Shown here piece by piece: positions 12,314-36,022 of a DNA stretch of 64,000 nucleotides. A program made the position numbers and the translations under genes. Location: positions 434,001 to 498,000 of the forward strand of contig NZNT01000029.1 in assembly GCA_002695005.1 (NCBI GenBank), in the 5' to 3' direction. The notes below the pieces were generated by a model that worked only from the letters and a program-made list of their open reading frames with translations, searched no databases and was not told where the DNA came from. This DNA comes from Maritimibacter sp. (GTDB taxonomy: Bacteria > Pseudomonadota > Alphaproteobacteria > Rhodobacterales > Rhodobacteraceae). Position 1 is the stretch's first letter; every line of letters begins with the position of its first letter.

Positions 12314-13459
<1,146 letters not shown>

Positions 13460-13625
13460 GGTATCCTTCCAGATATATGCCCCTCGTTGGGGAGGGGTGT
13501 CCCGTCGACGCAGATACGGCCGGGCCATGATGCGCACAAGTGGGAAAATCGCGTGAAACCGACCTATTCGTGCGGCGTTCCGACACGGTGTGGAGCGGAT
13601 CGGAAACCCCGAGACCGCCCGCGCG

Positions 13626-34637: not shown

Positions 34638-35279
34638 ATGACCAGAATACTGCCCGGCGTTATCGCCATGGCCGCCGTCGTGGTGGCATCCAACATCCTC
34701 GTGCAATTCCTGCTGGGCGACTGGCTCACATGGGGCGCTTTCACCTACCCCATCGCATTTCTCGTCACCGACGTGATGAACCGCGTCTACGGCGTGCGGG
34801 CCGCGCGGCGGGTGGTGTTCGTGGGGTTCCTCGTGGGCGTTGTGTGCTCGCTCATCGGGTCGCAGATCATGTTGCAGGGCGACGGCTACACCTACGCGGC
34901 CGTTTCGCTGCGCGTCGCGGTGGGCTCTGGCATCGCGTTCCTGACCGCGCAACTCCTTGATGTCGCTATATTTAATCGCCTGCGCGACGGGGCGTGGTGG
35001 CGGGCGCCTTTGGCGTCGACGGTGATCGGGTCGGCGGTGGATACGGTGCTGTTCTTCTCGATCGCCTTCTCGGCCACGCTGGGCGCCTTCTTTTCCGAGG
35101 CCGCGAACATGGAGACGTCCTGGGCGACCGAGGCGGTTCCGTTCCTGGGACAGGGCGGCGTCGCACCCTTGTGGGTCAGCCTTGCGGTGGCCGACTGGCT
35201 GGTCAAACTTTCGCTCGCTTTGGTCGCGCTGATCCCGTTTCGTGTGCTCGTCGCGAAACTTTCACCAAATCCTGCGTAA
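34638..35279 (+). CDS. yhhQ: Queuosine precursor transporter (YhhQ family)
   Basis: 213 residues, six or so hydrophobic helices. Family features are LTWGAFTYPIAFLVTDVMNRVYG near residue 30 (seen in two pieces), AVGSGIAFLTAQLLDVAIFN near residue 92 and SAVDTVLFFSIAF. YhhQ imports queuine precursors (preQ0/preQ1) for the modified tRNA base. The 65-base leader upstream contains a short CCTGC/GCAGG hairpin but no recognisable preQ1 riboswitch. Its stop is followed by the structured RNA region described next. Confidence 0.92.
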   Translation: MTRILPGVIAMAAVVVASNILVQFLLGDWLTWGAFTYPIAFLVTDVMNRVYGVRAARRVVFVGFLVGVVCSLIGSQIMLQGDGYTYAAVSLRVAVGSGIAFLTAQLLDVAIFNRLRDGAWWRAPLASTVIGSAVDTVLFFSIAFSATLGAFFSEAANMETSWATEAVPFLGQGGVAPLWVSLAVADWLVKLSLALVALIPFRVLVAKLSPNPA

Positions 35280-35290
35280 AAATTGTTGAC

Positions 35291-35307
35291 CCACACAAAA
35301 TATGTGG
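35291..35307. promoter_or_regulatory. Inverted repeat and -35-like element upstream of the 13-codon ORF
   Basis: TTGACC at 35286-35291 resembles a -35 box. Immediately after is CCACA-N7-TGTGG (35291-35307), which could be an operator or the end of the yhhQ transcript. No convincing -10 hexamer is visible at 17 bp. Confidence 0.35.
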
Positions 35308-35346
35308 CACCTTTTCCTTATCGTAACTCATAGAAAGGAGGTGTCC

Positions 35347-35388
35347 ATGTCTAGAGAAACTATGGAGCGAGGTGCCGGGACAAAGTAG
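35347..35388 (+). CDS. 13-residue short ORF (MSRETMERGAGTK)
   Basis: ATG 35347 to TAG 35386-35388, preceded at 3 bases by the end of GGAGGTG, an unusually strong ribosome-binding site. Coding capacity is only 13 residues. It may be a leader peptide, a small functional peptide or just the translated part of a regulatory RNA. No homologous peptide is known to me. Confidence 0.4.
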   Translation: MSRETMERGAGTK

Positions 35389-35477
35389 TCGCGCCGCGCC
35401 GGGGCAGCCCCCGGAACGGATCGCGGGCTGAGTTGGCGGAATGACCCGCCTAACCGGCCCCACCTCCAGACTTCTCG

Positions 35478-35506
35478 AAGGGCCACCCGAAGCGGTGGCC
35501 CTTTTC
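35478..35506 (+). terminator. Intrinsic terminator of the short-ORF RNA
   Basis: A 10-bp stem AAGGGCCACC (35478-35487) / GGTGGCCCTT (35494-35503) with six-base loop, followed by TTT and CGCG. Confidence 0.85.
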
Positions 35507-35530
35507 GCGTCCGGGGGGCTGAAATGGCCA

Positions 35531-35605: not shown

Positions 35606-36022
35606 ATGATCCGCGTGAACGACACGATCACGATCGAAGACTGGGAATGGACCGAGAGCTTCGTGCGCGCCTCGGGCCCCGGCGGTCAGAACGTAAACAA
35701 GGTGTCCACGGCGGTCGAACTCCGGTTCGAGGCCGAGCGCTCGCCCAACCTGCCCGACCCGGTGAAACGGCGGCTCAGGCGGCTGGCCGGGCGGCGCTGG
35801 ACGACGGACGGCGCGCTGCTGATCTTTGTGCAGGACACCCGGTCACAGGCGAGGAACAGGGAGATCGCGCAGGAGCGGCTGGCGGAGCTGATCCGCAAAG
35901 CCTGTGAAAAGCCCAAACGCCGGGTGCCGACCAAGGTGTCGCCCAACCAGAAGCGCAAACGCGTCGACGCGAAGAAGAAGCGCGGGGAGGTGAAGGCGCT
36001 CCGGGGGAAGGTGGAGGATTGA
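35606..36022 (+). CDS. arfB: Alternative ribosome-rescue factor / peptidyl-tRNA hydrolase ArfB
   Basis: 138 residues. The GGQ loop ASGPGGQNVNKVSTAVELRF (Gly26-Gly27-Gln28) is the class I release-factor catalytic motif; the C terminus is a basic tail (KPKRRVPTKVSPNQKRKRVD and KKKRGEV) that inserts in the empty mRNA channel of stalled ribosomes. No codon-recognition domain is present, which separates it from RF1/RF2. In alphaproteobacteria ArfB backs up tmRNA trans-translation. The start is preceded by GGGCGAGGGCGGC. The phased repeat array lies immediately upstream. Confidence 0.93.
   Translation: MIRVNDTITIEDWEWTESFVRASGPGGQNVNKVSTAVELRFEAERSPNLPDPVKRRLRRLAGRRWTTDGALLIFVQDTRSQARNREIAQERLAELIRKACEKPKRRVPTKVSPNQKRKRVDAKKKRGEVKALRGKVED

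Follow-up and report, generated by a model that had tools for sequence, protein, structure and literature searches.

A 64,000-nt stretch of Maritimibacter sp. DNA (hereafter, the window) contains a compact gene that reads at positions 35286-35506, between yhhQ and arfB, with all three on the + strand. We identified it as an ortholog of rreR in a derived form. It is probably a stand-alone small mRNA of the rreR type, controlled by ribosomes, whose ribosome-binding site (RBS) is covered by its own tail. This kind of RNA has already been published (rreR); the self-covering design and its spread are worth testing.

The small transcription unit occupies 35332-35506 and comprises, in this order, the RBS, a 13-codon ORF, the heptamer CACCTCC, and an intrinsic terminator. 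Every element named in the original prediction, which described a self-contained RNA with a 13-codon peptide ORF, was found in place, and the layout and the conserved frame both support that description. The upstream neighbour yhhQ encodes a queuosine-precursor transporter (34638-35279, +; NCBIfam TIGR00697, 90.7 bits, cut-off 50.95), and the downstream one is the ribosome-rescue gene arfB (35606-36022, +; NCBIfam ArfB, 172.9 bits, cut-off 100), a sure assignment. A promoter candidate can be read from the sequence at 35286-35313 (+): TTGACC (35286-35291), a 16-nt spacer, and CACCTT (35308-35313), a possible atypical -10 of the small gene. A sigma-70 consensus scan of the window made no call there. 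Among the 54 Rhodobacterales-type loci (those with this ORF type beside yhhQ), 50 have TTGAC, TTGCC, or TTTGC between 85 and 31 nt before GGAGGTG, mostly at 51-57. The terminator, a stem-loop with a TTTT tail at 35478-35506 (+), is recognised from the sequence, the fold, RNAalifold, and changes in relatives, with two-sided substitutions at 11 of the 12 stem pairs in a structure-fitted alignment of 100 genera (A3). A simple terminator scan demanding at least five T in eight did not list it. The gene is neither a tmRNA nor a tRNA, as ARAGORN on the window returned only a tRNA-Val at 1038-1112, and it is not a named riboswitch or leader, as Rfam at gathering thresholds returned only serC and one tRNA. 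The former is a serC leader RNA (RF00517) at 13456-13507 (-), which scores 70.3 bits, over its cut-off.

The original prediction had proposed comparison with relatives as its check, and the gene is indeed conserved in the family. BLASTN with the 240-nt region gave matches in 19 of 61 genomes, the window's own included, a few of which are short matches elsewhere; from the window alone it reached other genera with E-values down to 1.7e-13. The covariance model R1, built from 45 sequences including the window and three congeners, found the gene at E 0.001 in 109 of 120 family genomes (one per genus). The score was at least 52 bits in 100 of them and weak only in nine; 11 had no match. Each of the 100 genomes has a single strong copy. 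This conservation makes the small RNA gene more than a product of chance. The 100 strong matches were fetched and read with a fixed start rule, whatever their start codon or ORF length. A second alignment (A2) holds 45 of the 53 Rhodobacterales-type RNAs: near-duplicates were removed to leave 46, and L149 was dropped for a terminator call that was too long.

The extended RBS (AGAAAGGAGGTG-TCCA, 35332-35347, +) was delimited with the 16S tail of three genomes of the genus and a duplex calculation. Its match to the complement of the 16S 3' end runs over 12 nt without interruption and, after a gap, over four more. Within it, AAAGGAGGTG (35334-35343) is the sole exact copy in the 64 kb. The calculated duplex with the 16S tail reaches -23.5 kcal/mol. 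The 51 window ORFs of at least 130 aa, with starts set mechanically, have a median of -6.4 and a strongest value of -18.0 kcal/mol; none of these long ORFs has an RBS as strong as that of the small mRNA. Three of eight genomes from the genus yielded the 16S tail TGGATCACCTCCTTTCT; the draft assembly that contains the window gave no match to the 16S 3' end and perhaps lacks the rRNA operon. All eight genus members, this one included, have only 11-12 nt of contiguous complementarity because two nucleotides are missing between the RBS core and the start. Among the 100 orthologs, the contiguous match spans 16-18 nt in 54, 13-15 nt in four, and 10-12 nt in 42. The shortened match is not peculiar to the genus of the window.

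The original prediction also suggested that the RBS could be hidden or freed through a downstream anti-Shine-Dalgarno element (anti-SD); the hiding, as a predicted structure, is now well supported. The element CACCTCC (35461-35467, +), exactly complementary to the RBS core GGAGGTG (35337-35343), is by itself not rare, with 15 copies in the window and 10.2 expected; it is singled out by the fold, RNAalifold, and its conservation in 100 genera. The 186-nt RNA has a predicted folding energy of -88.7 kcal/mol; its shuffles give -70.4 (sd 4.6), which corresponds to z -4.0, and the seven pairs between the two elements have probabilities of 0.89-0.90. The predicted availability of the RBS falls from 0.56, when the transcript ends at 35459, to 0.02, when it ends at 35468; it is 0.06 in the full RNA, and 0.34 when the anti-SD is replaced in silico. 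Forcing the RBS open costs 6.2 kcal/mol, and pairing with the 16S tail is calculated to gain much more, so that a ribosome could in principle still open it, kinetics being ignored in this comparison. The fold also contains a local GC hairpin, CCGGGGCAGCCCCCGG (35399-35414, +), whose core GGCAGCCC is kept in Rhodobacterales-type RNAs.

The same closure is predicted across the family. In the 100 RNAs found with R1, the RBS core is paired at 0.965 against 0.716 for shuffled bodies; it is higher in 97 and at least 0.9 in 89, although R1 itself contains the lock helix and pairing among its matches therefore leans toward it. The other three (L325, L330, and L353) pair below their own shuffles. In 97 of the 100, the strongest partner of the RBS lies 38-61 nt from the 3' end. 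An earlier, pattern-selected set of Rhodobacterales-type RNAs gave 0.99 against 0.72, higher in 50 of 50; this set excludes three congeners (MSRETMV...) and L022, which had been grouped as 'other'. RNAalifold on 45 sequences recovers the same 7-bp lock helix unprompted, and in A3, which was fitted to structure, the helix pairs in 98.7% of cells. Sliding the partners lowers pairing from 96.6% to 41-54% on the 45 sequences and from 98.0% to 40-65% on A3.

Of the covariation that the original prediction had proposed to look for in relatives, part is seen. In the lock helix, whose fixed 5' side leaves no room for two-sided change, only one-sided G-U changes occur. Two-sided changes are found in the terminator stem and in a second helix of the consensus structure, P2, which pairs CCGG within the ORF (35375-35378, +) with 35454-35457 (+), within the conserved CTAACCGG. 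P2 has such changes at all four pairs (19 cells, 100 genera) and is disfavoured in the fold of the window sequence alone.

The ORF (35347-35388, +) starts with ATG, encodes MSRETMERGAGTK, and ends with TAG; it was delimited from the sequence and the class-wide ORF set. Of the 100 orthologs (one per genus), 94 carry an 18-codon ORF and four a 20-codon one; a length of 12 codons occurs once, and the window is the only case of 13. The start codon is GTG in 90, ATG in seven, and TTG in three, and codon 2 is Ser in 95. Codon 19 is TGA in 46, TAG in 38, TAA in 10, another triplet in six, and never TGG, for which 18.7 cases would be expected if positions were independent and phylogeny is ignored. The use of all three stops together with the absence of TGG therefore indicates an open frame with its stop under selection. 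(These counts replace an earlier stop-codon count that had used an 18-codon filter.) Taken over all 18 codons, substitution gives no clear sign of coding (the synonymous fraction is 0.34 against 0.27, and 60 of 500 shuffles are as high). The fraction is 0.45 against 0.25 in codons 2-12 (four of 500 shuffles as high) and 0.23 against 0.30 in codons 13-18, where substitution is not coding-like; in the Bradyrhizobium ORF it is reversed, at 0.14 against 0.32. A general coding signal from codon positions is thus unclear overall and seen in codons 2-12 only, and the peptide sequence is only weakly constrained.

These patterns bear on the alternative of a non-coding, trans-acting small RNA, in which the ORF would be incidental and CACCTCC or other loops would pair with the RBSs of target mRNAs. 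The wide variation of the peptide between lineages, the behaviour of codons 13-18, the strong GC structure, and the filing of the related CC2171 as an sRNA in Rfam would all suit such an RNA. It would leave unexplained an 18-codon frame kept in 94 of 100 family RNAs with three stops and no TGG, and a start codon whose distance to the RBS, the strongest one found in the window, suits initiation; moreover, the anti-SD is predicted to be buried within the RNA itself. We regard this explanation as unlikely. A long-range lock between the 3' part of an RNA and the RBS of a small ORF also recalls type I toxin mRNAs such as hok. Such toxins are short hydrophobic membrane peptides, which MSRETMERGAGTK, hydrophilic with a GRAVY of -1.33, does not resemble, and 100 of the 120 family genera carry one strong copy of the gene; a toxin mRNA is thus extremely improbable.

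The position of the gene raises the question of whether it is a leader or attenuator of arfB, in which translation of the short ORF would decide on read-through of the terminator. All 54 Rhodobacterales-type loci have yhhQ upstream on the same strand. In 48 of them arfB lies downstream on the same strand, its match starting within 150 nt of the terminator in 44, which favours a leader, and 569-955 nt away in the other four. It is absent from the examined flank in the remaining six, one of these flanks being just 72 nt long. The RNA thus stays with yhhQ in the 10 loci where arfB is displaced or not found, which marks it as an independent gene rather than a leader of arfB. Neither gene occurs in the examined flanks of the 149 RNAs of other types, and 19 loci from the class have no common neighbour except one weak protein pair (29.6% identity). 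No conserved antiterminator was seen by eye. The linkage is not constant, and we reject a cis-regulatory role on synteny, giving it a very small chance of being right; the original prediction, which had separated the RNA from arfB by virtue of the intervening terminator, agrees with this.

We infer that the small mRNA is transcribed, translated weakly or in pulses, and controlled by ribosomes. The gene, about 180 nt long, has a terminator and probably also a promoter to itself, and would encode the 13-residue peptide. Once the transcript extends past 35467, CACCTCC would pair with the GGAGGTG core and close the RBS. A 30S subunit would then probably have to load while the RNA is still being made, after the RBS has emerged and before the anti-SD follows ~115 nt later; alternatively, it could use its 16S tail to displace the pairing strand. 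Apart from that, the complete RNA would be silent and compact, and expression would be set by the availability of ribosomes. This suggests that an extremely strong RBS need not mean high translation. The same RBS might instead serve as a decoy that titrates or parks small subunits, the peptide being a by-product. Its complementarity exceeds the needs of initiation, and rreB is said to co-sediment with the 30S, its long RBS and its GTG both reportedly slowing translation. A finished RNA that is predicted to hide its RBS throughout the family suits a decoy poorly, as do the conserved frame and stop, and we find this reading quite unlikely compared with a self-covered small mRNA.

Similar genes occur across the class. 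Of 385 class genomes, 99 contain a single match to a pattern of the RBS and start (two mismatches allowed) and one contains two, which makes 100 genomes; the reversed control matched one genome, and a few of the two-mismatch matches are probably other genes. We extracted 214 class RNAs. This first set (102 + 112 RNAs) was collected in part through patterns requiring GGAGGTG and a start codon, one of them also GTG + TC, so that its start codons, second codons, and RBS match lengths are partly a matter of construction. Four ORFs of 55-58 aa (L060, L063, L136, and L137) and loci that were off pattern or duplicated another were left out of the ORF set. A terminator lies within about 170 nt of the stop in 203 of the 213 tested by script (the scan skipped L240, whose ORF exceeds 45 aa; the stop before the terminator in frame 0 is by construction). 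The peptides have 13-36 residues and are alike within lineages only: MSR..LE.GVGT beside yhhQ; MSHCH..TW..AS in Rhizobiales genera, Brevundimonas, and others; KRCHLAGIAR in Bradyrhizobium; and ..EQP.. in others.

The lock does not extend to all of these RNAs. Over 203 class RNAs, the pairing of the RBS is 0.73, as in shuffles (0.73), and higher in 102, which does not support a class-wide lock; in the MSH group the RBS is more open than in shuffles (0.57 against 0.73). As far as folding predicts, the long-range lock is bound to the family lineage of the window and not to the whole class. In the MSH group, the strand preceding the terminator finds its partner at the start of the ORF instead; the longest Watson-Crick match is 6.03, against 3.85 with partners taken from other groups (n=60), and the corresponding values in Rhodobacterales-type RNAs are 4.40 and 3.84 (n=50). 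Inspection by eye further indicates that Rhizobiales-type RNAs have a CTGGATC inside the ORF that is able to pair with a GATCCAG at the start codon, with seemingly compensatory variants in L043 (GATCCTG/CAGGATC) and L042 (GATCCCG/CGGGATC). A constraint on the RNA could explain the conserved TW..AS of the peptides.

Among named families, the closest is the Caulobacter RNA CC2171. The original prediction had matched the RNA to no named family; this no longer holds, given its orthology to rreR and a full-length match to CC2171. The Rfam search that had been suggested thus yielded a family, with a sub-threshold score: RF01867 matches the window over model positions 1-159 at 21.4 bits (E 0.034), under its cut-off of 75. 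Its search of the window's own genome gave no match at E 0.01. In the class, RF01867 matched 30 of 142 genomes at E 0.01, five of them over the cut-off. Conversely, R1 matches all 20 CC2171-type loci at 19-44 bits, scores that can come largely from the shared RBS and terminator and therefore do not prove common descent; from the layout and the copy number, we infer that the whole RNA descends from a common ancestor class-wide. Rfam types RF01867 as an sRNA, although in each of the 20 loci (L033-L052) a short ORF comes right after an RBS complementary to the 16S. It may be a family of small mRNAs with too strict a cut-off. A study of Caulobacter (PMC4117421) reports no translation for most of its non-coding RNAs, but does report it for two that had been predicted earlier. 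In one CC2171-type locus, a bacterial small SRP RNA (L038:1306-1402, -) lies directly 3' of the RNA.

Beyond Alphaproteobacteria, we observed a similar gene in three of 59 genomes of one family of Pseudomonadota (L280:1500 +, L281:1500 -, and L284:1515 +). It consists of (T)AAGGAGGTGATC, which we take to be the complement of a 16S tail ending in CCTTA, an 18-codon ORF, CTAACCC, and, by eye, a terminator-like hairpin. The three peptides are MSRVKVFGQAAMSEGRSS, MSSVLKIRKSAMSEGRVY, and MSSVLNFGIVTMGEVLLS, respectively. Rfam gave no match on the L280 gene, and three more weak matches among the 59 genomes are without such an RBS. Five pattern matches lay outside the class; four of them were discarded as protein genes of a single kind whose RBS is strong but ordinary.

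A broader hypothesis, which we hold possible but doubtful, is that rre-type small mRNAs, CC2171 and the gene outside Alphaproteobacteria included, are an ancient and widespread one-copy gauge of free 30S subunits in Pseudomonadota, the RBS in each lineage staying near the complement of that lineage's 16S 3' end. Several lineages would have independently evolved internal copies of the 16S tail that compete with the ribosome (a 3' anti-SD in Rhodobacterales, an in-ORF strand in Bradyrhizobium) and so let the RNA report whether intact 16S tails are available. If the family does gauge free 30S, it would offer a simple RNA reporter of ribosome supply. The comparison ties the rre small mRNAs to CC2171, listed as non-coding in Rfam. 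The literature searched contained no paper linking CC2171 with rre genes; the main rre paper, which lay outside the search, may link them. The element at 35461-35467 gives the question a concrete form: does a mimic of the 16S tail ration the translation of a tiny mRNA?

The known systems resemble the window RNA to different degrees. As a passage of PMC10117765 describes it, rnTrpL/peTrpL of Sinorhizobium is likewise an alphaproteobacterial small RNA with a 14-residue ORF, but it is leaderless and belongs, as an attenuator, to the operon downstream of it. The window RNA, by contrast, carries an extended RBS, and the gene that follows it is not constant. CC2171 shares the full length from RBS to terminator and the short ORF right after the RBS; it differs in that the start of the ORF, and not the RBS, pairs with the strand before the terminator. 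The rreB gene of Bradyrhizobiaceae, reportedly a small mRNA of 165 nt with a 14-codon ORF and 17 nt complementary to the 16S, is similar in design, and predicted RBS pairing there also exceeds that of shuffles (0.87 against 0.77, in 13 of 13 Bradyrhizobium). However, its partner strand lies inside the ORF (CACCTCGCTGGGATC), its neighbours are others, and its peptide is unrelated.

The closest counterpart is rreR of the Rhodobacter/Roseobacter lineage, said to encode 18 aa from a GTG start. The rre RNAs are reportedly bound to the 30S, weakly translated, and stabilised when the start codon is removed, and are said to have been detected by at least 16 nt of complementarity to the 16S 3' end. We know of no description of a 3' anti-SD lock in rreR. 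The paper reported to describe rreB and rreR, Hahn et al. 2017 (RNA Biol 14:1353-1363, doi 10.1080/15476286.2016.1256534), is cited in PMC7298713 and PMC7217052. A table of the latter lists a 14-residue protein of 1.6 kDa from Bradyrhizobium japonicum and an 18-residue one of 1.9 kDa from Dinoroseobacter shibae, both as unstructured. Our computed ORF masses (1.59-1.62 kDa in Bradyrhizobium and 1.96 kDa in Dinoroseobacter) fit these lengths and rough masses, in a passage that gives no sequences.

The window gene shares with its rreR orthologs the order of features, the yhhQ neighbourhood, the RNA model, and a peptide with an N-terminal MSR and an internal G-x-G-T. It differs in its ATG start (seven of 100 orthologs), its 13 codons (94 of 100 have 18), and the two nucleotides that its genus lacks between the RBS core and the start. 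We call it a derived form because two features reported for rreR, a match of 16 nt or more and 18 codons with GTG, are absent. All eight genus members, the window's own included, share the derived traits. The genus seems to have relaxed the long RBS and the GTG while keeping a seven-pair lock free of G-U; this reading is suggestive only, because other long-RBS genera also carry CACCTCC. With its 12-nt match the window falls short of 16 nt, a length reached by 54 of the 100 orthologs, and the 16-nt rule is a poor definition of the orthologous group. The terminator of its own that marks rreR and rreB is present in the window and conserved in the 100 genera.
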